The position numbers and the translations under genes were made by a program. Positions 1,407-25,778 of a DNA stretch of 25,979 nucleotides are shown one piece after another. Position 1 is the first letter of the stretch. Each line of letters opens with the position of its first letter. The DNA comes from Pelagophyceae sp. CCMP2097 (taxonomy: Eukaryota; Sar; Pelagophyceae): NCBI GenBank assembly GCA_026770575.1, contig MU657169.1:155000-180978 (forward strand), written 5' to 3'. The notes below the pieces were generated by a model, which searched no databases, had not been told where the DNA came from, and saw only the letters and a program-made list of their open reading frames with translations.

Positions 1407-1574
1407 ATACACGTCAAAACGGCGGTCTTTCCCGGTCCATTGACTACTGCTGCGAGCCACCGTCTGTCTCCGACCGGCGCGGCTGCAACGTCGGGACGAA
1501 GCCGATGCCAGCTCGCAAAGTCGCGCGGACTCGCCGAAACCGGTACCTTTTCGATCGCCAAGTCGCAAGAAGCC

Positions 1575-2622
1575 ATGGATTTCCTGGCCCTCGGCTCGCC
1601 CCCCCCTCTCGACGCGGCGGCGAAGCGGCGCGCGGCGGAGGATGCGCGCGCCGCCGCCAAAGCCGACGTTTTGCGGCAGCGCGCAGAAGTGAAGAAGCTC
1701 CACCGGGCGGCGCTCGTGCGGCAGCGAGACGAGTGAGGCCCGGCGGCAGCCGGCGGACGCCGCGGGACCCGCGAAATAGGTACGCGGCCATGGTCGCCAA
1801 GCTCGCCGGCTCGTCGAGCGTGGCGGCGGCAGCCGTCCGCCTCAAGGTCCGTCCAAACGCGACGTCGCGCCGTCCGCGCGCGGGCCGCCGGGGTCGTCCG
1901 CCGCCGAGGCGCGCGCGCCGCCGATGCGCGTGCCGCCAGGCGGAGCAGCGCCTCGCCGAACTCGACGCCGAGCTCGGCGCCAGCGCGCCCGCGGCGACGA
2001 CGCAGAGCCGCGAGCCGCAGAGCCGTGAGTCGCCGCCCTCGCCGGCGGACGGCCCGCGGCGCCCCCGAGTGCAGAGCGGCCCGTCGCTGCCGCGCGCGTG
2101 GCCGCCGTCGCGCGCGCGCCGCAGACGCGCGGGCTCAGGCACGTGGCGACGGCAGCCGCGCGCGCTGGACGCCATCGCAGCTGAGGCGCGCGCGCTGCCG
2201 AAGAGCGCGGCGGGGACGGCGGCCGGCGGGGATATCCTGAAAAAGTAAGTTGCAGCGCCCTCGCGCGCGGCCGACCTCGTTCGACTAGGTATTCCGTTTC
2301 GGCAGTCGCGCATGAGAAGAAGCGCGCCGACGCGGCGGCGGGCGGCGCAGGCGAAGGCTACCTCGAGGCGCCCCTCGTGCCCGCGGTGCGTACTCCGAGG
2401 ACGCGTCTTTGCGGCATCGGACGATTGCTTTAGGGTCCGCTGACGGCGCCGCCGACGACTGCGGCGGCGTTTGAGAGCGCGGATTCGATCCTGCGCAAGT
2501 ACTCTGCAACGAACGCCGCCGCCCCGCCGCCGCCGCCGGCAAAGGCGGCGGACCACCGGGAGTCTACGTCGTCCAACCCAGACTTGCTCATGCTCCCGCC
2601 AAAGCAAAAGCAAAAGCGCTGA
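1575..2622 (+). CDS. Small coiled-coil protein of unknown function, six exons
   Basis: Not recognised as a named family. Exons by splice signal and phase: 1575-1732, 1780-1846, 1940-2024, 2139-2244, 2289-2385, 2434-2622 (702 nt, 233 residues); the third and fourth boundaries are least certain. The start MDFLALGSPP has a good context (GCCATGG). Residues 15-75 are rich in Ala, Arg, Lys, Glu and Gln, and a second helical stretch follows (AEQRLAELDAELG), so a coiled coil is likely. The last exon has a motif FESADSILRKYS, then a Pro run, and ends LMLPPKQKQKR. The last two introns are clear: donors GTAAGT and GTGCGT, acceptors CTAG and TTAG, and in-frame joins. It ends 56 bp before the stop of the convergent phosphatase gene. 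No function can be inferred beyond a structural role. Confidence 0.6.
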
Positions 2623-2678
2623 GCGGCGGCATGTTGTTCAGTGAATTGTTCTTCTAATGTTGTCGGGATACTGTTGGG

Positions 2679-3652
2679 CTAGTGTTGCTCATACGAGTAG
2701 GCGGCGCGGCTGAGGCCGCCGCCGAGGCTCTCGGCGAGGCTCTCGGAACGGCCGCGGAGGCCCTCGGAGGGGTTCGCGTCGACGGCGGCCGGTTCGGCGT
2801 GCGCGCGGTGCGGCTCGCGGAACGGCGCATTGCCGTACGTGGCCTGCCACTCCCCAAGAGCGTCGCGCATCTAAAGTCGACGATGGTGCCGCACAAGGCA
2901 ACCCTCATGCACGGCTCCCGAATGCACGAACTCACCTTTTTGTTCAGCTTGACGGCGGGCCGGTGCAGCTTGCACTCTTCGAACGCTGCTTGCCAATTCT
3001 CAAAGACGCCCGCCCTGACCAGGCAGGCGACCATGACGCAAGTGCTTCGGCCGCGGCCGTGGGCGCAGTGGACCATAATATCGCCCTGGTCGCGGTGCGT
3101 CGCCGCGAAGAGGGCCGCCTCTTCGAGTTGAAAAGGTGAAGGCGGCTGGCCGTCCCAGCATCTCAGGTTGAGATAAAACTCGGTGGCGTCGATGCATCTT
3201 TCCGGGAATTCGGCAGTCAGGTCGATTGTCGCGGCCCATTTCTTCTTGAGGGCGTCGCCGTACCGTCCCCCGATGAACCACCCCGGCGCCACTCGAGACG
3301 CCGGCGGCGTGCCGTGCGACACGCTCGAGTGCACGGCCGTGTATAGCCACGTCGGGAGGTGGAAGGGCCACCACGCTACGTAGCTCCAGAGCGGGACGCG
3401 GCCGGTCAGGACGTCTTTGCCCAGGACAGCCATGCCTCTTCTCGTCACAAAGCCGACGACAGCCGCCGCGTTCACCGCAGCAGCGTACCACAGCAAAAAC
3501 GCCGCGACACCCTCGCACCGCACCGCGCACACCGCCGAAACAAACGACAAGGCCACGTACCTACGGATCACCCCCGTCGGAATCGCCTATTGCTGGGTTC
3601 CCGCGTTGGGGCTCCAGACGCACTTCAGGTGCACGCCGTGCACGGCGCCCAT
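2679..3652 (-). CDS. Membrane-anchored dual-specificity (Cys-based) protein phosphatase
   Basis: Three exons, 3652-3624, 3560-2936 and 2870-2679, give 281 residues. The 63-nt first intron (donor GTGCGT, acceptor GTAG) links the ATG to the body, and the 65-nt second (GTGAGT...TTTAG) joins VKLNKK to MRDALGEWQ, both in phase. The protein tyrosine phosphatase signature HCAHGRGRS lies at about residues 174-182, with Cys175 as predicted nucleophile and Arg181 for phosphate binding; the preceding loop CWDGQPPS carries a candidate general-acid Asp. Residues 10-50 contain two hydrophobic stretches and a third Trp-rich segment follows (about 66-85), so it is probably bound to a membrane with a cytosolic phosphatase domain. 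The C-terminus is low-complexity. The substrate cannot be read from the sequence; lipid phosphate is possible, as for PTPMT1-type relatives. Confidence 0.8.
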
Positions 3653-4095
3653 CCTCTCGTCGAGCTTTGCTCCTTCGTGACCTCGCGCGCGGGACCCGGG
3701 CCCGCCTCAAAGGTAAGCCCGGCTTCGCAAAGAATTTTTGCAATTGAAGAAATCCAGGCCTTTTAGCGATATGTCTGTCTCTCGCGACGCGACGCGGCCG
3801 TAAACGACGACGTCTCGTCGCCGTAGCTGGCCTCGGGACCATCGCTGTACCCACGGTGCGCTCGAGTCGTGCCCTGAGGGATATCTCAGAGATGGCCTCC
3901 AGGATGAGCTGGGGGTCGAGTCGGGGATCAGCGCCGCGTGGCGAGTCTTTACGGCCGGGGTCGCGCCGGGCGTCGACGACCGTCGCTCTGGAGCGGGCAT
4001 CGCCCCCGAGCGCCCTCGCCGGCAGGGCGGCGGCGCTTCGAAGGAGCGCGTTCACGCCGGCCGGAGAGCGCGTCGACGCCGGCCGAAGAGCGCGA
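3653..4095. other. Spacer without a confident gene; imperfect 22-bp repeats
   Basis: Several frames stay open on both strands because stops are rare in this composition, but none has a recognisable domain or clearly higher GC at third positions. Three imperfect 22-bp units starting GAGCGCG lie at 4044, 4066 and 4088; the last overlaps the end of the Sel1 frame. An AT-richer patch at 3720-3770 could be UTR. Confidence 0.4.
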
Positions 4096-4743
4096 TCACG
4101 CCGGCCCTCGACGCGAGTTGGCCGCGACAAAGGCCCGGATTTTGTCGATGACCGCCGGAGCGCCGCCGTGGCCCTTGGCCGCGGCGCGCTCGAGGTAAAC
4201 TAGCGCGGCGTCCTTGTCCTGCGGCACGTCGCGGCCATCCGCGTGACACACGCCGAGCTCGTAGAGCGCTTCCAGTTTGCCCTGCGCCGCGGCGAGGCGG
4301 CACCACTTGGCGGCTTCCTCGTACGACTGCGCCACGCCGTGGCCGTGGTAGAGCATCTGGCCGAGGCAAAACTGCGCCTCTGGATGTCCTTGCTCGGCTG
4401 CTGGTCGGTACCACTGCGAAGCGGACTTGAGGTCGATCTTGGCGCCGTTCCCAGCCTCGTTACAATATCCCAATGCAAACTGAGCGTTAGTTGCGACATC
4501 AACCACCAATCGCTGAATCGGCCGAGTTGCTGCCCGGCACAGCACAGCGTTTGGAGGACTCTTGAAACCAATGAAGGTCCGGGCGAGGGCGCTGGGTCTC
4601 ACGCGGTGGCCCCTGGCCCACCGCGCGCTCTCGCACCAGTTCGAACTCGCGGGTTCCTGGCCCGAGATCCTTGGGATGAGCGACGACGCGTTCAAGGCGG
4701 CAGGTGGGAGCCTCCACCCCCGGCAGCTGGGCGCGGAAGGCAT
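4096..4743 (-). CDS. Sel1-repeat (TPR-like) protein, probably the C-terminal half of a MYND-Sel1 protein
   Basis: The frame ends in TGA at 4096-4098. From about 4510 downwards it encodes three to four Sel1 units: AQFALGYCNEAGNG...SASQWYRPAAEQG, AQFCLGQMLYHGHGVAQSYEEAAKWCRLAAAQG, then ALYELGVCHADGRDVPQDKDAALVYLERAAAKG. These have the G-x-Y/C-G, A-x-x-W/Y and AA-x-x-G spacing of the family. Sel1 repeats form alpha-solenoids that bind partner proteins. The true 5' end is unclear: the frame is open up to 4743, but the first ~60 residues show no Sel1 pattern. A CTAAC...CAG sequence just before the first repeat could be a branch point and acceptor. An N-terminal MYND finger 700 bp upstream on the same strand fits the MYND-Sel1 architecture I associate with pelagophyte and diatom genomes. 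Confidence 0.7.
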   Translation of the reverse strand: MPSAPSCRGWRLPPAALNASSLIPRISGQEPASSNWCESARWARGHRVRPSALARTFIGFKSPPNAVLCRAATRPIQRLVVDVATNAQFALGYCNEAGNGAKIDLKSASQWYRPAAEQGHPEAQFCLGQMLYHGHGVAQSYEEAAKWCRLAAAQGKLEALYELGVCHADGRDVPQDKDAALVYLERAAAKGHGGAPAVIDKIRAFVAANSRRGPA

Positions 4744-5753: not shown

Positions 5754-8585
5754 TTAGATTTCGTACTCTGCGGGCTCGTCGTCGTACTCGCCTTGTTGTT
5801 TGGGGTCGGCCCAAAACTCGCGCTTCTCGACGGAGAAGTCGTCTGCCGCAGCCTCGTCAAAGGCGTCGATCAGGCCTTGTCTCTCCCGCTCCGCATAGTG
5901 CGAAGTCTGCTCCAACGGCGCCGCCTGCCAGAACGAATCGTCGAGGTAGAGGTGCGGGTCGTGGACGAAGCAGCCCTCGTCGTCGTCGCCGATGCATGGC
6001 CGGAAAAGCAGATCGGCGCCTTTGCCAAAGTCGTAGCGGTCTCGCGGCTGCGGCGACTGCCCGTCATCGAAGAGGTGGACGCACTGCCCCGCCGCGTCGT
6101 AAATTAAAGGGACGCCCGTCGGGATCTCAATCTCCGAGATTCGATCTTCTGGGATGGCGCACAGGTGCATTAGCAACCCGCGAATCGCGTTCTCCGAAGA
6201 CGCGATGAGGACCGTGCGGTTCTGCGCGACGGACTCGGGCAAGATCACGTCGCGGAAGTACGGAATCGTGCGCTCCATGCAATCCCTCAAAGACTCGGTG
6301 CGCGGCAGCTTGCGGTGGAGCTCTAGGCGACCGTGGGCCTATCGTTTTCGTTAAGCCTCTATCGACGCGTCGCAAAGGCCCCTCGCCGCGCGTCTTAGGG
6401 CCCTTGCCGGACGCGGCGCGTCGCGAGCGACCGGATGACGGACTGGATGACGGAAAAGCGGACATCCCGGACGTGCGTCACGTACCGCTCCTAGATTCCC
6501 ACGGGTCATTGTGGATACGGGGTCGGAAACGGCGCACCTCGTTGCCCGGGTAGATGGGCGAGAAGGGCGACGCTGCCGGCGGTCGCGTGTCGTACGAACG
6601 CCGCCATTTCATGAACTGCGCGTCTCCGTGGCGCTGTTTAATCATGCGCTTCGAAAGACCCGTCAAAGACCCGTACATGCGCTCGTTCAAGCGCCAAGAC
6701 TTGATGATCTTCACCCACTGCGAGTCCAGCGGCAAGAGCACGAGCCTAGATGCAGCGTCGGGCGGCGCGGAAGCCATGCACAACCGTGTGTGCGGGTGCT
6801 CTCCTCGCGGCGCGGCCCGTTCTAAGGCGCGGGCTGCCGACCAGGCCGTCTCGATGGCTCGGGAGAGCCAACTCGTGTAGACGATGTCGATTTCCACGCC
6901 GTGCCTGTTCAGCAGCTCGCCCGCCGCGGTAGCCTCGCAGCGGCCCTCTTTAGCGAGAGGCGCGTCGAGCCAGCCGGTGAACAAACCCAACTTGTTGTGT
7001 TCCGTCCGGCCGTGCCGTATGATGACCAGCAAAGGCGGCGGGTTCGGGTTCTTGGCCGTCCACGGCCGCGCGCTGCGCCGCCGGCGCACGCGGCCGTCGG
7101 GCGTTGCCTCGGACCGCATTGGGGCAGGCGCAACGAGGGCCGCGTGGACGGGAGATTCGGCCGCCGCGCCGGGCTCCGCGTTTGCCGCCGCCTCGGCGGC
7201 CTTCTTCGCGGCGGCCGTCTCGCGCATGAGCTTGCGCTCGGCGTTGAGGAGCCGGAGAGACTTTTCAATGGGTGATAGCACGGTGCTCGAATCCGACTTT
7301 ACCAACTCGCCTTGCGGTGAAGTCGCGCGCTCGCGGTCCAGCGCCGCGCGCAGTAGGCCCTTTTCCTCGAGGAACTCGCCGGAGAGCGGGGCCGCGCGGT
7401 TCTCTGAGAAGAGGGGGACTAGAGCACCGGTGATGTTGTTTCGCGCAAACTCGTACACCAGCGGGATGCCTATGATCTGGCGCGTTGGCTCGGCATACAC
7501 AAACGTCTCCTTGCGAGCGACAAGGCCGCCGGACGGACCGTTTGGGATGCCGACGCGCTCGATCTGGCGCGCGTCGAGGCCGTCAATGTTCTTCACCAGG
7601 CCTCGGATGGAATTCCCGTGCGCGACGACCATGACCGTCTTGCCGCACTGCAGATCCACGGATATCTCGTCCCACACGGGCAGCGTGCGCTCGAGACAGT
7701 CCTAACGGAGCTTTTCGGAAAAGCGTCCCACGGCACGAGCCGACGCGCCTTGAGGCTCTCTGAGGCGGGGATGAGGTGCCTTGGGACGTCGGCGTACTTG
7801 CGCTCGCGGACAGGCGAGAGCGCGTGCGTCGCGGGCATGGGCGGCGGCCTGGTCTCGTACGAGGCGCGCCACCGGAACACGACGTCGTAGCCCAACTTCG
7901 CCGCCAGCGTCGTCTTCGACAGGCCCTGCAGAGCGCCGTAGTGCCGCTCGTTGAGGCGCCACGTCTTCTTCACGGGCCGGAACGACTGGTCCAGCTCTCG
8001 CAGCAGGATCCAAGAGGACCGAATCGCGCGCTTGAGCAGCTACAGAGGCCGCGCGTTCAGAGCGACAGACCCCGCAGCCTCCACGGAGCCCGCATCGCCG
8101 TCGCTCTGGCGAGTCGCCCGCCTCGAGGCGCCCTCTGAGGCGTGGGTGGCGTCGGTGAGTCGTTACGCACCGAGGTATACACGACGTCGATCAAGTACCC
8201 GCGCTCCAAAAGCAGCCGCGCCGCGTGCTCCACCTCGCGCTTGCCGTGCGCCGACATGTCCACGTCTACCCAGCCTAAAGCAGGAGCACGCGTCGAGAAA
8301 GGCGACGTCGAGCATACGTTGAAGGATCCCCAAAGATCTTCTTCGTCGTCTTCCGACGCCGATCCCCGCGGCGCTCCTTTGGATAAAGCAAGGCGCACCG
8401 GTAAACGTCTTGTTGGCGTTCCAGAGCGACTCGCCGTGGCGTACAAGGATGAGCTTGCCCGGTGGCTTCTCGCGGCGAAGCAAGTTACTCAGCGGCGCAA
8501 GCCGCGGCCGGGAACCCAGCAGCGCCGCCGCGGGCGCAAACCACGCGACCAGCGCGCACGCCGCGACGCCGGCGAAGGCCTTCAT
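5754..8585 (-). CDS. Tandem two-domain phosphoglycerate mutase (dPGM type) with N-terminal leader
   Basis: Eight exons: 8585-8399, 8274-8171, 8039-7749, 7701-7539, 7469-6842, 6745-6538, 6490-6440, 6338-5754; all phases agree and give 738 residues. Residues 1-23 are hydrophobic and end AAALLG, a possible signal peptide before a Pro/Arg-rich, transit-like stretch. Domain 1 (about 44-256) has RHG (49-51), RLNERHYG (125-132) and the second catalytic His in VAHGNSIRG (His222). A charged Ala-rich linker (about 260-390) follows. Domain 2 (about 395-610) has RHG (400-402) and RLNERMYG, but VAHGNS is replaced by ASSENA, so the second His is Ser592. The enzyme would interconvert 3- and 2-phosphoglycerate in glycolysis. 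Intron 3 is GC-AG; introns 4 (69 nt) and 5 (96 nt) are stop-free multiples of three. The ATG at 8583-8585 is the first in frame; codons upstream lack one. Confidence 0.88.
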
Positions 8586-9417: not shown

Positions 9418-10241
9418 TCAGGCGCCGCTTTGGAAGGATACGGCAGAGCAGGCGCCGCTTTGATAGGATGCGCCCTCGTCGCCGGCGCGCGCCGCGAGCT
9501 GCAGCTGCGCCGCCGCGAGCTGCGGCAGTTGCGGCGCCGCGAGCTGCGGCTGCGCCTTGCGCCGCGCGTCTGCAGTACCAGCGGCGTGCCTCGTCAGCGC
9601 CTTGACGACCGCCGCGTGGCCGCCGCGCCGCGCGGCGTCGATGGGCCGGACGCCGTGTTTATTTGCGGCGCCGACGTCGCAGCCGTGCACGGCCTGGCAC
9701 AGGAACTCGACGACTCCGACGTGGCCCCTCGAACACGCGGTCCAAAACGGAGAGGCGCCCATGCACCCTGAGCAGCCCTTGTTCACGTCCACCACCCCGC
9801 GCAGGTTCGCCTAAGCGGCGCACGAGTCGCGGGTCCCGCGCCCCGTCTCCCGTTTCCGTAGAAGCAACACACCATGACCATCACCGTCTCGATGTGTCCC
9901 TCGTGGCAGGCGGCGTAGAACGGCGTCGCGCCGTGCGCGTCGCAGCGGTTGACGTCGACTGCCGGGTCCGCCGCCAGCGCTTGGACGAGCGACGCCTCGT
10001 TACCTGCGCGGCGGTCTCTGCCGGGAGGGCCGCGGTCCGGCGCGTGCGTCGGGCGTGGCGCACCGTGGGCGGCCCACCAGAGGACGACTTCGAGGTCTCC
10101 GGCCGCGCGGACGTCAAAGTCACCTTTGAGGATGAGAGGATGCGCCAAGTTCACAGGATGCAGCGGCAGCGACCGGTCGATGGCCACCGGCTGCAGCGGC
10201 AGCATCAATGCCTCGGAGACATGCGCCGGCCCGCGCGCCAT
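9418..10241 (-). CDS. Ankyrin-repeat protein
   Basis: Three exons, 10241-10064, 10003-9873 and 9810-9418, give 233 residues. Intron 1 (60 nt, GTGCGC...GCAG) removes a non-ankyrin stretch and restores WWAAHGNEASLVQALAADP. Intron 2 (62 nt, GTGTGT...TTAG) joins HIETVMVM to ANLRGVVDVNKG. At least three ankyrin units are seen: DAHGATPFYAACHEGHIETV, MGASPFWTACSRGHVGVVEFL, and NKHGVRPIDAARRGGHAAVV. The C-terminus is a Gln/Leu/Ala-rich tail coded by short tandem repeats, ending with a duplicated QSGA. Ankyrin solenoids mediate protein binding; no catalytic domain is attached, so the partner and role are unknown. The start ATG is 161 bp from that of NF-YA on the other strand, so the two share a promoter region. 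Confidence 0.75.
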
Positions 10242-10402
10242 CGCCCGGCGCGGTCCCGCGGGCGGCGCGACCGGCGCTAGCGCTCAACGGCTCGTTACGT
10301 CAAGGCGATTCCAAATCCTCAGCGCGGCAGGTGCATTCCCATTGGAGCGATTTGAAGCAAATCGAACGCCCGCCGCGCGGTCCCCGCGCCGGCGTTTTTC
10401 TC
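10242..10402. promoter_or_regulatory. Divergent promoter region between ankyrin gene and NF-YA, with a CCAAT element
   Basis: The 161 bp between the two start codons must hold both promoters. ATTGG at 10341-10345 (CCAAT on the minus strand, flanked as CTCCAATGG) is the core bound by the NF-Y trimer, and it lies 58-62 bp upstream of the NF-YA start codon. This suggests self-regulation. A five-base core also occurs by chance, so the site is suggestive only. No TATA box is evident. Confidence 0.4.
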
Positions 10403-11321
10403 ATGGAGGCGCACGCGCGCGTAAACGGCGTCCGAGCCCGGGGCCGAAGCGCAGAGGCGCCGGAAAGCGGCGAGGAAGAATCGCAGAGCATGCCGAGTGT
10501 GGACGCTCTAGGACCGGGGCTCGGCCGCCGCGCGAGGGCCCGCGGCCGCCTCAGCAGGGCGCGGAGGAGGCGCCCATGCTCGTCAACGCCAAGCAGTACA
10601 ACCGGATACTCAAGCGCCGGCGAGTCTCTTTCGCCGCGGCCCAGACGCCTCGGCGGGACACCGCGATCGATGTAGCCTCGCGCGCGCCAAGCTCGAGACG
10701 CTGCGCCGCGTCGTCGGTGATCGCAAGAACTATCTCCACGAGTCGCGCCACAAGCACGCCTGCAGGTGCGCCGCCCCGCGCCGCGGGACCGCCGTGCGGA
10801 CCCGCCGTCTCAGGCGGAAACGTGGACCCGGCGGCCGCTTCCTCACCAAGCCCGAGCTCGACGCCATCGCCCGCGAGGAGGCCGAGGCCGCTGCCAAGGC
10901 GCCCGCCGCCGGCGATGCGCCTGCAGCCACCGACGCCGAGGCGATGGAAACGGACGCCGACGCGCCCGCGCCGCCCGAGCCGCCCGAGTCCGCCGACGAG
11001 GGGCCGCCGGCCGCGGCAACGCAGCAGGAGGCGCTGCAGGCGCAGCCGCCGGTGCAGCTGCTGCAGCCGCCGCTGCAGCCGCCGCCCACGCCGCTGCAGC
11101 CGCCGTCGCTGCAGCCGCGCGCCGCGCCGTGGGCGCTCCTCGCGGCGCCAGCCAAGGAGCTGCCGCGCTACCACGACGGCGACCACGCGCACAAAAGCCA
11201 GCCAAAGGCCGTGCAGCGGACAGGTGACGATTCGAAGGCTTCGTGCGCCGCGGCTTTCAAGGCCGGCCCGACGGCCGCCGCCAAGCCCGAGGCCGCAACC
11301 AAGCCCGCGGCGCCCTCATAA
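10403..11321 (+). CDS. NFYA: NF-YA (HAP2/CBF-B), CCAAT-binding transcription factor subunit
   Basis: Exons 10403-10498, 10555-10619, 10676-10765 and 10814-11321 give 252 residues. The conserved core is complete after splicing: VNAKQYNRILKRR, then LARAKLETLRRVV, then GDRKNYLHESRHKHA, and RRKRGPGGRFLTK. The first helix (about residues 38-60) binds the NF-YB/NF-YC histone-fold pair. The YLHESRHKHA part and the GPGGRF loop contact CCAAT DNA, and the linker length matches the family. Intron 2 (10620-10675) is a GC-AG intron; reading it any other way breaks the KRR-ARAKLE helix. The first exon is the least certain: the in-frame upstream region has no ATG, so a 56-nt intron (GTGGAC...TCAG) was placed. 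The C-terminal half is Ala/Pro/Gln-rich (QPPVQLLQPPLQPPPTPLQP), like NF-YA activation domains, though here on the other side of the core than in animals. Confidence 0.88.
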
Positions 11322-11579
11322 CTCGACGTTTTCCCGTAATCTCGCGGTACCGTCATCCAGTCTCAACCGGCCCGAGGGCACTCGGTCGCTCGCGCCCGAG
11401 GGAACAAAGCATGCGAGGCAACCCCCTCCGTCCAGGTTACCGAAGCTTCGTCGATCCTCGGCTCTGCAGGGCCCGTTCGAAGGAACACCCTCGTCCCAAG
11501 CGGGCCCAAGAGACTTCGAAAGCCGTGCGGCGCGAGTCTTGGGGGATGCAACATTTTTTAAACAACACCGGCGTGGCGT

Positions 11580-11694
11580 CTAGTAATCGCCGCCGGCCGT
11601 CGCCTCGCCGCCGAACATGTCCATGCCGCCGCCCATGTCGACCTCCTCCTCCTCCTCCTTGACCTCCTCGACGGCCGCCGCAGCCGCAGGCGCC

Positions 11695-14060: not shown

Positions 14061-16682
14061 ATGATCACATGGGAGGAAGATTTGTCCACTCAGCAGCAAA
14101 ACTCGCGCTGGGCGCAAGACGCGCCGCGCGACGCCGACAACGACCGGGACCGCGACGCGCGCGACCGCCAGCACGTGCGTCCGCCCCTCGCCACCGTCCA
14201 TTGGGGGCCTCGCACTTTGGGCTCGGCGATTTTTGACCCGGCCGTCCGGAACATATGCATATGGACACCGCTCCCCGCCGCACCGCCGTGCCTCGCAGGA
14301 GTTCTTCAGCGGCGCGTCGTTTGCGGCGTGGGAGCGCGCCGAGGAGGAGGCGCGCGGCCAGTTCGACGAGCGTGAGCACTTCGCGTACCAGAGTGGCCAC
14401 TTCGACCACTCTGCCCGAAACGGCCGCTTCCAAGGCCAAAACGGCCACTTCGACGACCCAAACGGCCGCTATTTCGACAGAGACGGCCGCATCGACGACC
14501 GCTTCGAGCCGCCGCAGGGCCATGTCGACGCGCGCGCGCAGTTCGAGTCGGCGCGCGCCCACTTCGAGCCGCAGCTGCCGCACGGCTTGTGGGACGCCCC
14601 GGCGCCGGCGCCGGCGCCGTGCGAAGAGGCCTTGCTGGCGTTCTCGCCGCCGTCGCCGCCGTTTTACTCGCCGCTCTCCGTCGCGCTCGTGGCAGACATC
14701 TTCGACGAACAACGCGGTGCGAAATCCCGCACGCTCCTTCGGGGTCTTTGGAGGCCCTCGGGGCACTCATCGTTCGGCCCTCTCTCGATTCAAGCCGGAC
14801 CGCCTTTGCTAGGCTCGCCGCAGCTCGCGGGCGTGGGCCAGCGCCTCTTCTGCGAGCCCGAGGACGACGACTTTTTGGACGACGAGGAGATCATTTCGAT
14901 GGGCGGCCACTTCAGCGCTTTCACCATAGCCGGCCCGCACCTCGAACCCACCTCGCCGACGGCCCTCGACGACCTCCGCAAGGGCTCCACGCCGCTCTTC
15001 GCCGACACGTTCGGCTCGCCCACGCTCCTCTCGTCGGCGCTGCACCGCGGCTCGTCGCTAAACTCCGCCTCGTCACTCCGAGACCTGCAACACGCGCCGC
15101 ACCGCGACTCGCCGCTTTCGCCGCTCCACTCGCTGCTCCGCTGCTCCTCGCTCAACTCGACGCACCGCGAATCGTCGATCCACTCGCCGCAGCCGCCGCT
15201 CCACTCGCCACACTCGCTGCACCGCGACTCGCCGCTGCTCTCGTCGCATTCGTTGCACCACGAGTCGTCCCACCACTCGCTGCACCGCGACTCGCCTCAA
15301 TCGCCGCAGCCGTCCGGGCGCGCCCTCGACCGCCTGGCGAGCTTCTTCGACGCGCCCTTCGAGGCGCCCTTCGAGGCGCGCGCGCCCGCGGCCCACGGCG
15401 GCTTCGCCCGCCAGATGCAGCCCGCGGACCTGCGCGCGCCCGGGTCGCCCGTCTGGTGCGTCTCCCTGCGCGTATTCCCGTGCCTGGCCTTTCCTTGACT
15501 GTCATCTTTTGTAGCTGGTCCGCGGCGTCGTACGAGGTGCGGACGACGGTGACGGAGCACGTCGAGCGGCGGCGCTCGTATTCCGAGCCGGAGCCGCTGG
15601 GGCCGCGGCGCACGTCACCCGAGTGGTCTGAGTCCGACTGGTCCTCCGAGTGGGAGGCGAGCGCTGCGGACCCGTCGCCGCGGAGCGACGGTGCGCGGCC
15701 GCTCCGCGACATGAGGCTGCGGAGCGCTTTTTCGCCTGCGTTTGGCACCCCGGCGTTCTCCCCGGTCGCCTTCGCGCCGGCCGCCTTTGCCGCGGCCACG
15801 CCGTCGCGCCTCACGGCGGCGTCCTTCGGCACGAGCCTGGCCTTCCCGCCGCCGCCGCCGCCCGACGAATACGGCAGCTACGGCTACCAAGGCGGCGGCT
15901 ACAACGGCTACGGCAGCACGCCGGGCGGCTACGGCGTGCCGGGCCTGCCGGAGCCGGCGGCGATGACGCTTCGGGTCGTGGCTGTGAAGCGTTTGAAGGA
16001 AGAATGCGAGTGGCTGCCTCTGTTCACTGGCATGACGTGGGTCGCCGACTGCCAGCTGCCGCGCGCCCAGGCCGGCAGCGTGGCCGCGCTCGAGGCGGCG
16101 GTGGCGAGTGCGACGCACGCCGGGTGCGCGGCGTCGCGGACGAAATCTAAGAGGCGCCGCCAGAGCCGCATCAAAGACGAGCCGCCGGCCCACTGCCACG
16201 TCACCTTCTTCCGCCAGGGCCAAGGCCTGCGCTTGCTGGCGTACGGCGTCAACGCGGCGGCGGCGGGGGCGGCCATGCGGAAGATGCTGGCCGCGAACCT
16301 GCGAGACGTGCAAGGCCGCCCGGCGTACCGCGGCGACAAGCAGCGGTTTGACGACGACCGCACGCTCGCCGCCACGGGCTGGGCCGAGCTGGAAGCCGAG
16401 CTGCGCCTTTTACTCGCTGAGTCGGGCGGCGCCATCCCGTGCAACCAAATTTCTCGTCGTTTTGAAGACCGTTTTGGGTCGGCGCTGTGCGAGACTCTCT
16501 ACGGCGACTTTCCGAGCATCACCGACCTCTTGAAGGCAGACTACCTCGCCACAGCCGTTCGGCTCGAGTACTGCCTCGAGGTTAACGCCGACGGCTCGCA
16601 CAAGAATTCCGACGTCATGGTCTTCCTCGTCGACAAAGGCCACGGTGGCTCGCACGACGGGCGCGTGCCGCTGCCGCAGTAG
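14061..16682 (+). CDS. OST-HTH/LOTUS domain protein with long disordered N-terminal region
   Basis: Exons 14061-14174, 14299-14716, 14813-15455 and 15515-16682 give 780 residues. The introns are 124, 96 and 59 nt, with GTGCGT or GTGCGA donors. Residues 1-500 are low-complexity: Asp/Arg/Asn-Gly-rich (NGHFDD, NGRYFDRDGRIDD), then Ser/His-rich with repeated LHRDSP and LHSP units, then a Tyr/Gly-rich patch near 15870-15940 (YGSYGYQGGGYNGYG). A folded part starts near MTLRVVAVKRLKEECEWLP. At about 682-745 lies an OST-HTH pattern: ELRLLLAESGGAIPCNQISR, FEDRFGSAL, then FPSITDLLK. LOTUS domains bind RNA or DEAD-box helicases in RNA-regulatory granules, and Tyr/Gly/Ser-rich tails are common in such proteins. 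The 96-nt intron 14717-14812 is stop-free and in frame; if kept, the protein has 812 residues. The LOTUS call rests on pattern, not on a search. Confidence 0.72.
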
Positions 16683-17203: not shown

Positions 17204-20200
17204 TCATCTGGGCTTGTGCTTCTGCACGAGGTCGGCGTTGATCTCGAGGCCGAAGACGAAGGAGATGAGGTCTGGCCGGGAGCCGAGGGCCGCGCGGAGC
17301 ACCTGATTTTCGACGCTCAAAAGTTCAAAGGCCGAGGCTCTGCGCACCTCGTCGTCTACCGAAAAAACCGACCGGTGGTGGCTCCAGTTGCGGATGTCGT
17401 CCTCGTCGGGGAGGCCCAACTGCTTCTTGTGCATCGTCGACCTGTAATTTTCGTCGTTGGAACGGCCGTCCCAGTCAAGGAAGCACCCAGAGGTCCCGCA
17501 ATGACTCACGGCTTGGTCAGCGATCTCGCAAAGGCGGCTGCGAAGGGCTTGGTCGCCGCGGGCGCCGCGCCGGGCGTCGTCTCGTCGAGCGCGAGGAGTT
17601 TCGGGGCAAATTCGCGCCAGAGGCGTTGCAGCGCCGTCCCGAGCAAGCGCACAACCGCCTCGTCCCGGCCCGCCCTAACATGAAGCGCCTGAAGCGACGT
17701 CGATGCGCGCTCGAGGTGAAAACGGCCGCCGCTCCAAGCGGACGCCTCTCAAAGCGGACCGCCTCTCAAAGCGGACGCCTCTCAAAGCGGACCGCCGCCC
17801 GTCCGACCGCGTCTTCCGACGCACTTCGCCGCGGCCTTGCCCCAGCCGAAGAGCCTGGCGCGTTGCGCGTCTGGATTCGACGAGGGGCGTCGGGGCACGT
17901 CGAGTCGGGGCGCCTCGTCGAGTCGGGTTCGAGTTCGGGTTCGAGTCGGGTTCGAGTCGGGTTCGAGTTGGGTATCACGCACTCTTTCCGGAGGTCGGGC
18001 GCGCCGGCGCAGTTCTCGACGCGGATCTGGGCCACGTGCGTCGCGACGGTCTGCCGCAGCACGTCGTCGGCGCACTGCGCGAGGACCTGCTCGACTTGGG
18101 CTCCGCGGACGAAGGCTTCCGCGCACGCCCACCGGCGCGGCCCAAAGGCGCCCTCGATCTGCCTGCGCCCGAGCGCGAGTTGGGCGTCGTCGGCGGCGTC
18201 GGCGCCGCCGCAGCAGTCGCAGCGCAGCTGCTCGTGCGTGTCGGACGTGGCCGTGGCCGTGAGAGAAAAGAGGCGGCGGAGCTCCGTCGTGTCAAACCTA
18301 ACGACGGTCCGACAAAGGCAGTCAAACGTCTCCCGTCGGAGGGCCATGATTCTCTGGCGTTGATCAAGCCTCTGGGCACGACTCTGCACTCTGTTGATTC
18401 CCCTGACGGTCTTTCCACCCCCGCGACGGTCTTTCCAACAGTCGCCGGCGCTGCCTCGTCACGCGTTCACGGCGTCCTTGTCGTCGAGGACGCCGTTGAG
18501 GCCGTCCTTGGCGAGCTGGCGCTGGAAGATCTTCTCCTCCACTGTGCCCGTCGTCAAGAGCCGGTAAGTAAAGCACCTGCCGCGGGAACGTCTCGCTCGC
18601 TCCACCGCAAACTCCCGTGCCTCTTTGGGGCCTCCTTCCCCAGGGGCCGCTCGAAGAACGGATGGGGCTCTCAAAGGCGCTCGAGGAGGCTCCCCCCATG
18701 GGCAACGTGGGCCCACCTTCGCGTCTGGCCGTCTCGCCAGCATCGCGCGGCGGCCTGGCGGTCCACCGCAGGGTTCCAGGCAGAGTCAAAGAGGACGAGG
18801 CGCGAGGCCCCGATGAGGTTGAGGCCCGCGCCGCCGGCTGTGGACCTGCGCAGACGGCGGTGCGGACGGGGCGGAGCTTTGGGAAAACATCTCGTTGAAT
18901 CCGAGACGCGGCCTCAATTGAGTATTGAGTATACGAGAGCAGCAGCGCAAAAAAGTGCGACTTTGGGTCGTTCAGCTCGGCGGCGATCTCCGTCCTGCGC
19001 TTCGCGGGCGTCTTGCCGTCGAGCATTACCCAGGGCCATCCCTGGCGGTCGCAGAGGGCGCCGATGAGCGTGAGGACCGAAGTCGCGTTGGCCACGACCA
19101 CGATGCGCTCGTTGCCGCCGGGGCCCTCGTCGCGCCGCCGCAGCCTACGGCAAGGCGTGCAGCGGAGCCCCACGTCGAGGAGACGTCGTCTGAAAAGGGC
19201 AATTCCGCCGACAAGGGGCCTTGTCCGACAAGGGGCCTTGTCCGACAAGGGGCCTGTCCGCTCAAAGGGCGCACTCGTGCATGAGCCTTTTCAGGACGTG
19301 CATCTTCGCCGAGGCGGCCTCGTCGGGCGGCTTGGCGTCGGCCAGGAGGAGCGCGGGGTGGTTGCAGAGCTTTTGCAGCTTGCCCAAAACGCCGAGGACC
19401 TCGCGCGGCGACGTTGTACTCGGTCAAACAAAGATACGTCACGGGGGAATGGCGAGAGGCGGGACGACGGTGCGGCAGCCCGCACCCGCATGTTCTCGAC
19501 GGGCGTCTTCTCTCTCTGTCGATGAAGCCTCTGTCTCGGGAGACTCTTTGTTCACTTTTCCCGGGCGAGACGCGGTTTCGAAGACGTCTTTCTGTTTCCC
19601 CTCGAGCGCGTGCCTCAGGTGCTTGTCGTCTACGATTGCGCGGTAGGCTGCTATTTGAGCCGCCGCCGGCGCGCAGCAGACGACTTGGACGAGCTTGGGG
19701 GGCAGGTGAATCGCATTGATCTTGTTCTCCCTTCTGAGCATGAACTCTACAGCTCTCACAGACAGCGCCGCCTGCGCCGCCGCCCCGGCCTTCAGCGCCA
19801 GTTCAGAGGCGCCGCGGTCGCGCGCCGCGGAGATTGGCGAGGAGAACTTTTTCGAAAAGTCGGAGGCGGACCCGAGCAAGCCCGGGTTGGCGGCGTTTGA
19901 GAGCGCGTGAAACTCGTCGAGGTCGTTTTGCAGCGGCGTCCCCGTCAGCAGAATCCGCCGCCGGCAAGGCAGACCCCCGAAGGCCTCGTACAGCTGCGTC
20001 GCTGCGCCTTTTAACCGCTGCGCCTCGTCGGCGACCAAGACGTCGCAGGCGCAAGGGCCCTTGAACAGGTCGACTTTGCCTCTGAAAGTGTCGTACCTAC
20101 GGATCAGCTCCCTGCGACGAGCCTCTGACGCTCCGGTTCTTTTCGTCGACGCCGCCAAAAACGAAATCACAAGAACGTGCGCCGGCCGCTGCGGCGAGAG

Positions 20201-23200
20201 GAACGCCCCGATCACGTTGTCCGCCTCGCGCGTCTCCAAGACGGCCTTGACCTCGATTCGCTGCTTGCGCGTGGAAGCGCGCGAATTGACCCACTTTTCG
20301 AATTCCGCGGTCCAATTGCCCACGAGCGAACAAGGGCAGACGACGACCGCGCGCTTAAACGGCGCGCCCTCGACTTCGCCGAGCTGCAGCAAAGTGTACA
20401 AAGCCGCGATGGTCACCAACGTTTTACCAAGGCCCATGTCGTCTGCCAAAATGCAGCCGTAGCCGCCGTGTCTGCGGCCGGTGACGGAGTCGTACACGAA
20501 TTGGACTCCCGACCTTTGATGCGGCCTTAGAAACTGGCACAGCAGCGCCGGCACCTGCTCCACGGGGTCGTCGTGCAGCACCAAAGGCTCGTGCGCCAAC
20601 ACTTGCACCGGTGCGGCGCCGCCGCGCGACGGGGCAGTGAACGCCTTCTTCTTCAGAAACAGCCGCCGCGGCGTCGCCACCAGCGGCGGGCCCTCGCTTT
20701 CGACGGCGTTTTCGCAGGTGACGGCCTCGTCGCTCTGCGGGCCCTTGCTCAGCCGCCGCGCGCCGTCGTCGTCGGACCGCGAGGAAGTCGACACGGCAAC
20801 GCGACGCACGGGCGCCATGAACCTCGGCTTCTTCGACGGCACCGCGGCGTCGCACGGCCCGGCGGCGCGGGGGGTCACCGCGGTCGGCCCGGGCGCGTCG
20901 GCGTCGAGCCCGTCGGCGTCCAGCTCCATCTCCGCGGCGCCGCCCGTCGCTGCAGGTGCGGTCGGAGATTCGTCCCTACGTACACGCACTCGACGATGTC
21001 TGAAGCGTCCTCTCGAGTACTCACGGCCTGCGCCGCGCGGGTGCGGCGAAGCGCCTGCGTTTCTGCTTCGGCGCCGTGTCGAAGACCGGTGCCGCGTCGA
21101 AGACCGGCGCCGCGTCGGCGACCGTTGGCCCCGCGTCGGCGACCGCTGGCGCCGCGTCGACGACCGCTGGCACCGCGTCGGCGACCGCTGGCACCGCGTC
21201 GGCGACCGCTGCCGCCGCGTCGGCGACCGCTGCCGCCGCGTCGGCGACTGACAACGCCGCGGTCACTGCAGCGGGGCCGGCACCATCGGGCGGCGCGGAC
21301 TCTGCCACTTTTGGGGCTCGTTGCGGCTCCCTGTGCTGCTCCTTGTGCGGCTCTGGGTCCGGGGCCGCCTCCGGGGCCGCCTCCGCGTCCGCTCCGCCGT
21401 CGTGGTCGGTCATGTCGCTGATCGACGGCGGGCTCGCGTCGCGGCTGCCGTAGCGGGGGGGCGCGTCTTCAGCGTCGTCGAGGCCCAGCGCGTCCACGTC
21501 CTCCAAAGGGCCCGGCGCGTCCACGTCGGCGTCCTCAAAAGCCTCGATAGACGGGGCCCGCGGCGCCGGGCATGGAGCGAGTTCGTCTTCTTCTTCGTCG
21601 CCGCCGCCTACGAAGCCGGCGGGATCGGCCACTGCCGAAACCGAAGCGCCGACTTTGGTCGGGTCGTCGTCCGCGCGCATCGCCGCCGCGTCTGCCATGG
21701 GCGCGTCCGCCTCGGGCTCTGCCGGAGCGTCGAGGACCTCGTCCGCGTCGTTCGTCGAGCTGCCAGAGGTCATCGTCGACGGCACGGCGTCGTCGACGCC
21801 CAGAGTCGCCGCCGCGTCTTCTGCAGTTTCTTCGACGGCGTCGCAGTCCATCGCCGACGCGGCGTGGGCATCGCCGACGTCCGCGGCGAGGCCCGGTGCG
21901 CATGCGTCGTCGAGCAGCGGGTCGGGCGCGCGGAGCTCCTCGGCCGCGCGGAGCTCCGCCACGGCGCCGTCCGCGGCCGCGGCCACGTCTACGACCGAGG
22001 CGCCGTCCGCGGCCGCGGCGTCGTCACTCCTCCGCGGCGCCTTGCTGTCCGGCTGGACGCACGTGTTGACGTCTGCGAAGCGAACCCGCTTCTTGCGCGC
22101 CGACGACGTTGGCCCGGACGAACTTTCTGACGACGGCGCCTCGGCGCGCGGCGGTTTGCCGCGCGGCGGTTTGCCGTGGGCGACGGCGGCGGTGACAAAG
22201 GGCATCAGTGGCGGAGGCGCGGGTTTCCCGGCGTGTTGAGGCGGCGCTGCGTCTTGTGCGCCGGGGTGGAGTCGTTGGATGTCGCCTTGGATGCCGTCGA
22301 TCAGAAACGGCAAAATCTCCGTCACCTGCACGGCCAAGCTCATCCCCAGCTCATCCGCCGCCGACGCCCAGGCGCCGGGCGCCAGCGAGTCCTTGGACCC
22401 CGGGCTCGGCGGGCTCGGCGTCGCGTACGTGAAAGATTCGGCCTCGCCAACGCGCGCGTCCAAAACGTCGACGACCCCGCCGCGGTCAAACGCAGCCGCC
22501 TCCGGGCCCGCCTCGGGCGCGCCGCTTGCGTCGTCGCCTCGGGCACCGGCGGCGTCGTCCGGGTCTGCGGCAGATGCGGCTCCGACTTGGACGCCTCCGA
22601 CTTGGACGCCTCGTTGGACCAACTCGGCGCCGGAGGCGGTATCGGCGAAGAGCGCTGTCGCGGCCGTCGGCGGTCCGTCCTCGTCTTGCTGCGACTCGCC
22701 GCCTCGCGGGGTTTCTTTGACGACTTCCTCGGGATCGGCAGTCGTCGTCGAAGAAGCGACAGCGGCGTCGTCAGCGAAAAACGCCGTCGCGGCGGTAACC
22801 GCCGTCGTCGGCGCGTCATCGTCGTCGTCCAGCTGCGATTCATCTCCACGAGGAGCCTCGTCGACCTCCAGCTCGTCGGCAGCGCCCGTCGCCGTCGGAC
22901 CGGCGTCTGCGACGGCGGCGTCTTCGGCGTCGGCGTCGGCGGAGAGCGCCGTTGTGGCAGCAGCCGTCGTCGGAGCGTCCTCGCCGTGATTCGACGCACC
23001 TCCTCGCGGAGCTTCGATGGCGCCCATCTCGGCAGCGTCGGTCGTCGTCGGACCCGGCGCCACGGCTAAAAAGTCGGCGTCGTCCGCGAAGAGCGCCGGT
23101 GCGACGGCAGCGGCCGTCAGAGGTGCGCCCTCGTCGACGAGGGAGGGCGTCGTTGCGGCGACAGCAGCCGTCGTTGGAACGCTGTCGTCGTCCTGCTGCG

Positions 23201-25778
23201 ACTCTCCTCCATGCGGGGCTTCGTCGACGACGTCCATCTCGTCACCCGTCGTCCTGGGTGCTTCCTCGTCGGCTGCGGCTGCGGCGGCGACGCCCCCATC
23301 TCCAGCGCCGTCGTCGGCTGCAGCGGTCATCGGCGGTGCGTCCTCGTCTTGAGATTCCCCTCCAGCCTCGTCGACCACATACATCTCGTCGGCATCGTCC
23401 GTCGTCGTCAAAGCTGCGGCGGCGACGGCCCCTTCGGCGACGTCGTCGGCGAGCGTCGTGGCAGCGGCCGTCGTCGGAACGGCATCGTCGTCGTCGTCTT
23501 GCTCCGATTCTTTTCCTCGCGGAGCTTTTTCGACGTCCGCCATCTCGTCGGCAGTGGCAGTCGCCGTCGGACCTGGCGCAGGGGCCAAAGCGTCGGCGCC
23601 GAAGGCGAGGAGCGTCGTCGAAGCGGCGGCTGCCACCGTCGGTGCGTTGTCTCTTTCGTCATGCTGAGATTCGCCTCCCTGTGGAGCTGCTTCATCGAGG
23701 ACCTCCACCTCGTCCGCACCACCCGTCGTCGTGGCGGCTACAGCGACGGCTACGGAGCCGTCGGCGAGCGCCGTCGCGGCAGCAGCGGCCGTCGTCGGAG
23801 CTTCGTCGTCTGGCTCCGATTCGCCTCGTCGCAAAGCCGCGTCGTCGTCGATAACCACCATCTCGTCCGCGCCCGTCGTCGTCGGACCCGGCGCAGGGGC
23901 TGCAGCGTCGACGGCGGCGAGCGTCGTCGCAGCGGCAGCGACCGTCGTCGGGTCGTCGGTGGTTTTCTCGTCTTGCTGCAATTCGACTCCTCCCGGAGCT
24001 GCTTCGACGACGTCCACGACGCTCGCCGTCGTTGGAGTCGCGGCAGCGAGAGCGACTGCTTTTTGGGCGGTGTCGACGAGCGTCGGTGCGGCAGCAGCGG
24101 CTGCAGTCGGAGCGGCTTCCTCGTCTTGCTGCGACTCTCGCGGAGCCCCGTCGAAGACCTCCATCTCGTCCTCCATCTCGTCCGTCGGGTCCGGCGCGGC
24201 GGCCGAAGCGTCGACTTCGGCGTCGAGGAGCCCCGTTTCGAGGGCAGCATCCGCCGTCGGTGCGTCTCCCTCGTCTTGCTGCGATTCGCCTCCGGGAGCT
24301 GCTTCGTCGACGACGTCCATGTCGGCCGCACCGTCAGCCGTCGTCAGAGCCGCGGCGGCGACGGCGCCGTCAGCGTCGTCGCCGGCGAGCGCCGTCGCGG
24401 CGGCAGCGGGCGTCGTCGGAACATCGTTATCGTCGTCTTGCTGCGATTCTTCTCCTGGCGGGGCGTCTACAATGTCCATCTCGTCCGTATCGTCGTTCGT
24501 CGGATCCGCGGCGGCTAAAGCATCGACGTCGGCGGCGAGCGTCGGCGTGAAAGTAGCGGCCGTCGTCGGAGCGTCTCCCTCGTATTCTTGCGTTTCACCT
24601 CGTCGCCGAGAAGGGTCGTCGACGACATCAATCCCGACAGCGTCGCTCGTCGTCGGACCCACGGCGGCGAAAGCGACGTCTTCAGCGTCGTCTGCGATCG
24701 CTGTGGCGGCGGCAGCGGCCGTCGTCGGAACGACAGCTTCCTCGTCCTGCGATTCGCCTCCTCGCGGTGCGTGGACGTCCGTCCCGTCGGCTTCGGCTGT
24801 CGTCAAAGCCACGACGGCTTCGGCTGCGGCTCCGCCGTCGTGCGGCGCGACGTAAACAGCGGCGTTTGAGCGCGCTGCGTCGCCTATTTCGCAGGACTCG
24901 GAAGCTGACGAATCATTCTCTCCCGCCGCCTCGGAGCCGCTGTTCTCGACGGTGCCCGCCTCGGACCCTTCGTCGTCGGCCGCAGTGTCATCGACTCGCG
25001 TGTCTTCGTCTTCGCCGCCGTCGTCGACACCGGCGCCGTCGTCGGCGGCACCGGCGCCGTCGTCGGCGGCGCCGTCGGCGGCGAGGGTCTTGTCGGCGAC
25101 CGCGGGTGCGACAGAGGCCACTCCTGCGTTGACCGCGGTGCCCGCGGCGTCGTCGACTCGCGACTCTTCGTCTTCGTCGACTCGGTACTCTTCCTCTCCG
25201 TCGTCGTCGGCGGTGCCGTCGTCGGCGGCGAGGGCCTCGTCGGCGACCGCGGGTGCGGCAGAGGCCACTTCCTCGGCGTCGACTCGCGACTCTTCGCCAT
25301 CGTCCGCGGCGGCGGTGGCGGCGGCTCCGCCGGGGGGAGCCGCGACCGTGTGTTCGGCAGAGGCCACGTCGTCTGCGGGTTGGACGCGTTGCGCGTCTGG
25401 GACGTCGTCGTCGGCCGCGCGCGCCGCCGGGGCCGCGTCGTCGGCGCGCCAGGCCTCGTCGCCGTCCGCGCGGAAGGGCGCGCCCTCGTCGTCGTCGGCC
25501 TGCGCGAGGGCCTTTTTCCGCGCCTTTGCGAGCTTTGCGCGGTACTTGGCCGCCTTCTTCTCGTCGCCCTTCTTTTCGGCCTTGACCAGCTTCTTCTCGT
25601 AGCGCTCAATTGCCGCCTCCACGCTCTCCTCGTCCGCCGCCTCGTCGTCGTCGTCGTCGTCCTCGACGACGTCCTTCTTCTTCTTCGAAGCCTTTGGCTC
25701 TGGCGCGTGCGGCGCCTCGTCGGCGAAGCGCACGCGCTTCTTCTGCGCGGGGCGCGACGGTGGCGAGGCGGGCGCCAT
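17204..25778 (-). CDS. RAD54: RAD54-family SNF2 DNA translocase with giant repeat-built N-terminal extension
   Basis: Nine exons: 25778-21025, 20975-19556, 19399-19275, 19144-18935, 18845-18717, 18576-18463, 18297-17983, 17674-17510, 17441-17204; 7,470 nt, 2,489 residues. All introns are phase 2 except intron 2. Exon 1 codes residues 1-1585: KKRVRFAD, a charged helix (about 50-92), acidic repeats, a second KKRVRFAD (1229-1236), and a DAAPAVA-type heptad array. SNF2 motifs follow: [11 protein letters not shown] (about 1760-1770), DEAQ (1901-1904), [34 protein letters not shown] and CWRDGQ. The end ([32 protein letters not shown]) matches the RAD54 C-terminus, interrupted by about 130 extra residues. 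RAD54 drives ATP-dependent translocation on duplex DNA and stimulates RAD51 strand exchange. The ADDMGLGKT form recalls RAD54B/RDH54. The alternative is that exon 1 is a separate gene ending at the TGA in 21021-21023 and RAD54 starts at 20929. Confidence 0.8.
17736..17793. repeat. 16-17 bp tandem repeat in RAD54 intron 7
   Basis: GCCTCTCAAAGCGGAC recurs at 17744, 17761 and 17777 with an imperfect copy before. It sits in the 308-nt intron 17675-17982, the longest of the gene. Confidence 0.9.
17921..17972. repeat. 11-bp tandem repeat in RAD54 intron 7
   Basis: Four to five units of GGTTCGAGTC with small variants. It is unrelated to the other repeat in the same intron. Confidence 0.9.
19209..19258. 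repeat. 18-bp palindromic tandem repeat in RAD54 intron 3
   Basis: The unit GACAAGGGGCCTTGTCC contains arms GACAAGG and CCTTGTC around GG. It is repeated about 2.5 times inside the 130-nt intron 19145-19274, so the intron RNA could fold into hairpins. Confidence 0.92.
21076..21258. repeat. 18-21 bp coding minisatellite at the end of RAD54 exon 1
   Basis: Two 18-bp units (GCGTCGAAGACCGGCGCC type) are followed by at least six 21-bp units (GCGTCGGCGACCGCTGGCACC type). On the minus strand they code DAAPAVA-like heptads and DAAPVF hexads just before the KQKRRRF end of the exon. Confidence 0.93.
22660..24771. repeat. About 14 diverged ~150-bp coding repeats in RAD54 exon 1
   Basis: On the minus strand each unit codes about 50 residues with the order [11 protein letters not shown], then acidic residues, then [15 protein letters not shown], an Ala-rich part, PTTTDADEM and DVVDE. 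Units vary from about 46 to 69 residues, and all keep the frame. Ten of fourteen have Ser-Gln or Thr-Gln after Glu. Copies are diverged in sequence, so the array is not a very recent expansion. Confidence 0.88.
25077..25271. repeat. Duplicated ~150-bp coding segment near the start of RAD54 exon 1
   Basis: TCGGCGACCGCGGGTGCG with flanking sequence occurs near 25093 and again near 25240, about 150 bp apart. It codes [18 protein letters not shown] and the related [17 protein letters not shown]. The period matches that of the main array, although the sequence differs. Confidence 0.75.

Follow-up and report, generated by a model that had tools for sequence, protein, structure and literature searches.

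In the window analysed here, a stretch of 25,979 nt (G000:C6:155000-180978) from an assembly of 66.2 Mb in 638 contigs, a RAD54-type Snf2 translocase probably carries an N-terminal extension of 1,585 residues. Removal of a 49-nt intron is predicted to join this extension to the translocase within one gene, giving a product of approximately 2,489 residues and so nearly tripling the protein. The fusion is supported by the splice model, by a basic box found before as well as after the junction and by lowered GC content over intron 1; on these grounds the suggestion of the initial annotation that both sides belong to one protein has gained support. In animals and yeast, RAD54 is regulated partly via a short disordered N-terminal region that serves DNA binding, oligomerisation and the response to phosphorylation. 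If the present reading is true, it shows how far such an N-terminal tail can extend, here to nearly twice the rest of the protein. Moreover, the parts of the tail (charge, S-Q sites, SUMO-like motifs and phosphatase docking) would become separable by comparison.

Gene model and neighbouring frames

The giant frame runs on the minus strand from ATG 25778 to TGA 21021 (25778..21021 in the window ORF list, 1,585 aa). It is the longest among 65 window ORFs of at least 150 aa, the runner-up being 697 aa, and an in-frame TGA stands at the 19th codon 5′ of its ATG. Its own TGA (21023-21021) sits within GTGAGT (21024-21019). It had been proposed that this stop lies inside a 5′ splice site, CC/GTGAGT at 21024 (strokes mark exon borders), and that a 49-nt splice to the GTAG at 20976 leads in phase 2 into the helicase frame; the sequence confirms the strings, the positions and the phase. 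The 3′ end of the intron reads ...GTACGTAG/GG, after which the helicase frame follows, and the predicted peptide across the junction is ...ARRRPDESPTAP....

The joined coding region, modelled by eye and by script, spans 25778..17204 on the minus strand with 8 introns, its stop ending at 17204 (Table 1). The product is 2,489 aa long, and the RAD54-type part, counted from the junction codon, comprises 905 residues. Six of the seven later introns are in phase 2, whereas intron 2 is in phase 0. Our separate gene model thereby matches exactly the phases and the product length of the initial annotation. The junction at 20976 was likewise placed correctly there, although the span given stopped at that position and the coding region continues to the stop. 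The length had been called exceptional for RAD54, and 2,489 aa indeed lies outside the 700-900 residues named as normal, within which the 889 aa encoded from ATG 20929 would fall.

Splice scores of the later introns vary, being 12.8, 11.0 and 10.8 bits for introns 3, 7 and 8, and 6.5 and 7.8 bits for introns 5 and 6. Introns 2 and 4 are weak (2.9 and 1.3 bits), and where exactly they begin and end is less certain; the best eight alternatives for intron 2 all score 2.9 bits or less. For intron 3, positions 19274-19190 were dropped in favour of 19274-19145 on the basis of the genome's TAG/G acceptor preference. The last intron, intron 8, has the same layout as intron 1 (AGCC/GTGAGT, phase 2, with a TGA in the donor).

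Elsewhere in the window, a histidine phosphatase match (His_Phos_1, E 7e-26) lies at 6478-7677 on the minus strand, and a weak dual-specificity phosphatase match, under the Pfam cut-off, at 2654-3571 on the same strand. Two long plus-strand frames, 14589-16682 (697 aa) and 9949-11583 (544 aa), gave no Pfam match at E 0.01.

Table 1. Features of the proposed gene, in window positions
Feature	Coordinates	Strand	Description or basis
Exon 1	21025..25778	-	Giant frame of 1,585 residues; all Pfam families below cut-off
Intron 1 (proposed)	20976..21024	-	Phase 2, 49 nt, GCC/GTGAGT...TACGTAG/GG; holds the giant-frame TGA
Exon 2	19556..20975	-	RAD54-type start with the opening portion of the Snf2 domain; holds internal ATG 20929
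Exons 3-9	17204..19399	-	RAD54-type gene; gene model
Exons 3, 4, 5	19399-19275, 19144-18935, 18845-18717	-	Gene model
Exons 6, 7	18576-18463, 18297-17983	-	Gene model
Exons 8, 9	17674-17510, 17441-17204	-	Gene model
KKRVRFAD copy 1	25719..25742	-	Near N-terminus; degenerate pattern search
Lys/Glu-rich element	25503..25700	-	Residues 27-92; 63% identity to C16 ATPase
14 degenerate repeats of ~50 residues	22539..24761	-	Residues 340 to ~1080; spacing 48-69 aa
KKRVRFAD copy 2	22071..22094	-	Residue ~1230; degenerate pattern search
Basic box 1	21033..21062	-	End of exon 1; pattern match
Basic box 2	20804..20833	-	After junction; pattern match
Basic box 3	20624..20653	-	After junction; pattern match

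Intron 1 and the sequence around the junction

The splice model was trained on introns of kinesin, TCP1/Cpn60 and Snf2 genes that lie outside the window in the same genome. As input we chose 30 pairs of neighbouring-exon matches whose profile positions meet or nearly so. Each pair was joined at GT/GC-AG sites near the borders. The join scoring highest against the profile was accepted where its margin was at least 4 bits, which retained 20 of the 30 pairs and dropped 10 as ambiguous. The acceptor is TAG/G in 19 of the 20 training introns, a tighter preference than the YAG seen in most eukaryotes. Donors are GT in 17, with 15 starting GTG, and GC in the other three, which may be misplaced. Lengths range from 41 to 239 nt; four of the 20 do not exceed 50 nt (41-50 nt), one being exactly 49 nt. 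Therefore, 49 nt is a normal intron length in this genome.

Intron 1 scores 15.8 bits (donor 8.5, acceptor 7.3), compared with a leave-one-out median of 13.4 bits for the training introns, two of which reach 15.8 or more. Among the 22,816 GT-AG pairs at 35-200 nt on both strands of the window, 11 match intron 1 or better, intron 1 included; as single sites, its donor is equalled or bettered by 11 of the 1,224 minus-strand GTs and its acceptor by 14 of the 1,426 AGs of the window, again counting intron 1. When all 41 phase-compatible GT-AG joins of the two frames were tried (donors 21400-21021, introns of 35-200 nt), intron 1 ranked first and the runner-up scored 4.3 bits. Onward splices of at least 15.7 bits were found at 13 of 1,346 ends of frames of at least 100 codons in 253.6 kb, intron 1 included. 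Eleven frame ends outscore intron 1, four of which are training introns. With the three GC-donor introns omitted from training, 10 of the 22,816 pairs equal or exceed intron 1, whereas stricter training (13 introns, margin of at least 6 bits) gave a weaker result, with 47 of the 22,816 pairs reaching its score. GC content is 0.78 before the intron, falls to 0.59 in a 49-nt bin covering almost all of it and is 0.73 after it, in a bin that still precedes the internal ATG; over intron 1 proper it is 0.55. From these sequence features we infer that intron 1 is spliced in cells.

Alternatively, the locus may hold two tandem genes, one for a free acidic repeat protein of 1,585 aa and one for a RAD54-type protein of 889 aa, with the splice pair arising by coincidence. 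Started at the internal ATG 20929, which has G at both -3 and +4, the protein would have 889 residues, a length usual for RAD54, and an N-terminal region of its own. Moreover, the peptide that precedes this ATG is not significantly repeat-like, as tandem genes would have it: for the 15-mer immediately upstream, a fraction of 0.48 of the 2,000 residue shuffles scored as well against the exon-1 repeats, and for a 35-mer a fraction of 0.16 did so. The same repeat scores were reached by 249 of 6,635 (15-mer) and 10 of 2,286 (35-mer) six-frame windows. Since it is not significant, repeat likeness upstream of ATG 20929 was not used as evidence. Codon usage of these 15 residues barely prefers the motor frame, which scores -5.64 compared with -5.76 and -5.82 for the two remaining forward frames; for the same 15 codons read antisense, one frame scores -5.61. 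However, the stop of the first gene and the start of the next, on the same strand, would be separated by just 91 nt, and coincidence would have to place one of the best 11 splice pairs exactly on the stop and in the correct phase.

The basic boxes also speak against two separate genes, being common to both sides of the gap. They were described by the pattern [KR][KR]x(0,1)[RKAP]FxAPx[KR], composed after the boxes had been seen. Elsewhere in 512,380 six-frame residues of this genome the pattern has only two matches; these share a single repeat-like stretch of L029, close to the second RAD54-type gene described below. A resemblance between the motif at the exon end and one just past the junction had been pointed out, and holds quantitatively: a 17-residue alignment of boxes 1 and 2 scores 43, a value reached by 20 of 30,713 six-frame windows of 25 residues (windows containing KRRRF were excluded from the count). 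Box 3 is less like box 1, with a score of 31 that 831 of the 30,713 windows reach. Weighing these observations, we consider tandem genes unlikely.

A related proposal is that of a switchable gene, in which intron 1 is sometimes retained, so that either the free repeat protein or the fusion is made, perhaps together with a short form from the internal ATG. Retention would place a stop directly after the basic box, the internal ATG lies 46 nt past the acceptor, and each of the forms would be a tidy protein. However, the strong splice sites argue for efficient splicing, and a stop of this kind arises with every phase-2 GTGA donor, intron 8 of this gene being an example. A switchable gene is very unlikely in our view, well behind the fusion. 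If the fusion is true, the layout would carry a more general warning: in GC-rich algal genomes, annotation can split such genes at a phase-2 GTGA donor, which always looks like a stop codon.

The N-terminal extension

The extension is rich in alanine (25.6%) and in Asp and Glu (22.4% together), has a net charge of -264 and is, judging by this composition, probably disordered. Searches against Pfam, at its cut-off, and against NCBIfam returned no match in it. It had been described as repeat-built, and repeats are indeed present within its 1,585 residues; only approximately 740 of these, however, are made up of the repeat units of around 50 aa. The degenerate units carry a GGESQQDE head, a middle and a tail, and the last unit was given a length of 55 residues by hand.

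Translation of the frame was considered with regard to codon usage and to substitution among the repeats. With codon usage learned from other genes, the giant frame is the best of six in 47 of 62 sliding windows. Among the 14 units in the coding frame, mean pS is 0.49 and mean pN 0.33, and pN<pS holds in 85 of 91 pairs. The corresponding counts out of 91 are 66 and 17 for the two remaining forward frames, and 88, 21 and 33 for the antisense frames. The excess of pS is therefore consistent with coding repeats and not decisive; alone it is no proof of frame, as one antisense frame behaves alike. This antisense result (88 of 91 pairs), and the length of overlapping frames in this window, would also suit a giant frame that is open merely through high GC and repeats and is never translated. 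Against this stand the 1,585 codons compared with 697 for the second-longest ORF, the preference of codon usage for the giant frame and the occurrence of KKRVRFAD twice in different codons, and we regard an untranslated frame as scarcely credible.

Several short motifs recur in the extension. Exon 1 holds ten S/T-Q sites (nine SQ and one TQ; shuffle mean 4.2, P 0.003), all of them within repeat units and in an acidic context, spaced at approximately 50 residues with a maximum of two per 100 residues. SUMO-interaction-like motifs of the form [VILM][DE][VIL][VIL] followed by acid number 7 against a shuffle mean of 0.37, and six are inside repeat units. The VVxV form shows no clear enrichment (4 vs a shuffle mean of 2.73). 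The consensus for arrays of SUMO-interacting motifs is a hydrophobic core, [VILM][DE][VIL][VIL], beside acidic residues, repeated in tandem. Motif counts within the repeats are not independent, because the units are copies of one another.

Outside the repeat units, a search for KKRVRFAD as a degenerate DNA pattern (arginine as CGN only) returned two occurrences in 66 Mb, both in exon 1 and encoded by different codons. The motif fits the RVxF consensus for docking of protein phosphatase 1 (PP1), [KR]x(0,1)[VI]{P}[FW]. At motif level only, this consensus is matched by the two KRVRF sites, which yield 4 overlapping regular-expression counts against a shuffle mean of 0.20. The Lys/Glu-rich element near the N-terminus is shared with a portion of the N-terminus of an ATPase on another contig (L080, G000:C16:341679-341864, minus strand), presumably ABC-F-like judging from its sequence. 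This C16 ATPase also carries SKAQLKKQ-type repeats.

The RAD54-type motor and comparison with known systems

Residues 122-681 of the 889-residue model align with zebrafish RAD54 (1z3i) at E 3.1e-101 (343 bits), compared with E 7.8e-57 (196 bits) for ATRX, the next-best solved Snf2 subfamily. ATPase motifs are present and are aligned with their RAD54 counterparts in 1z3i. The alignment ends at residue 681 and the last ~200 of the 889 residues have no counterpart in it. The sequence WSHH..DEV..SFVF may correspond to the end of RAD54. No relatives of the helicase exon were found in IMG/VR or in prokaryote genomes, where of 46 and 61 pattern matches respectively 0 were confirmed.

A second RAD54-type gene lies in the same assembly (L029, G000:C64:156500-162500) and is 55% identical to the window gene over 116 residues. 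Over the matching segment of 112 aa, the C64 gene scores 80.4 bits against 1z3i and the window gene 66.3. The earlier designation of the window gene as RAD54 thus stands as regards a RAD54-type motor; it is one of two such genes, however, and in this one segment the other matches 1z3i better. Care is needed in naming it: of the two genes, either may be RAD54 and the other RAD54B-like. No repeat frame comparable to exon 1 was found in the ~0.77 kb before the first match of the C64 gene. Within L029, positions 1494-4329 form a gap of ~2.8 kb between stretches whose matches in the window protein lie at residues ~265 and ~332. The gap holds exon-like scraps (DVLVISYETFRLHAKRF; VCDEAHRLK) together with a stretch of repeat-like character (RGPSRGAVSRGRLEG-like), and looks as if it were an intron filled by a repeat. 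Two DNA searches for a second copy of the window locus, as allele or paralog, returned none; beyond the locus itself they gave 9 and 42 short matches, none longer than 158 bases, with identities of 71-90%.

With regard to function, the extension could form a long regulatory and recruitment tail placed before the usual N-terminal DNA-binding region of RAD54. The basic boxes adjacent to the motor may contact DNA or RAD51, S-Q sites of the acidic repeats may be phosphorylated by checkpoint kinases, and the SUMO-interaction-like motifs may bind SUMO-modified repair proteins. Phosphorylation and SUMO binding would then tune oligomerisation and loading on DNA, and KKRVRFAD could dock protein phosphatase 1, which would undo the phosphorylation. 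Taken as a whole, a checkpoint- and SUMO-responsive antenna of approximately 14 acidic units (with ten S/T-Q and six SUMO-like motifs), flanked by PP1-docking-like sites and possibly freed by intron retention, appears rather unlikely in this full form.

Literature searches, judged by titles and the opening parts of abstracts, listed no paper on a RAD54-type protein with such an extension. Human ATRX, with ~2,490 residues and a long N-terminal part, has a RAD54-like Snf2 motor and nearly the same total length as the window fusion. However, the window motor scores far lower against ATRX than against RAD54, and no Pfam domain, such as the ADD domain, lies above cut-off in exon 1. Rdh54/Tid1 and RAD54B are paralogs of RAD54. 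Yeast Rdh54, a target of Mec1/Rad53, recruits RAD51 and self-associates by means of a disordered N-terminal region, and the passages on it describe no extension of the size seen in the window gene (PMC10681728). S/T-Q cluster proteins are defined by at least three S/T-Q within 100 residues, in a census that lists Rad54/RAD54L (PMC3564818); exon 1 shares S/T-Q sites in an acidic context and, with its maximum of two per 100, falls outside the definition. For human RAD54, whose final residue is 747 according to construct names, excerpts of one study state that the N-terminal domain binds branched DNA and drives the oligomerisation needed for branch migration, and that phosphorylation of S49 inhibits oligomerisation (PMC5750232). 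In the window protein too, basic boxes lie in a short region preceding the motor, at the N-terminus of the RAD54-type part, yet ~1,700 residues would precede that motor in all. On the simplest reading, the extension would represent the known regulatory tail of the RAD54 family, enlarged by repetition.
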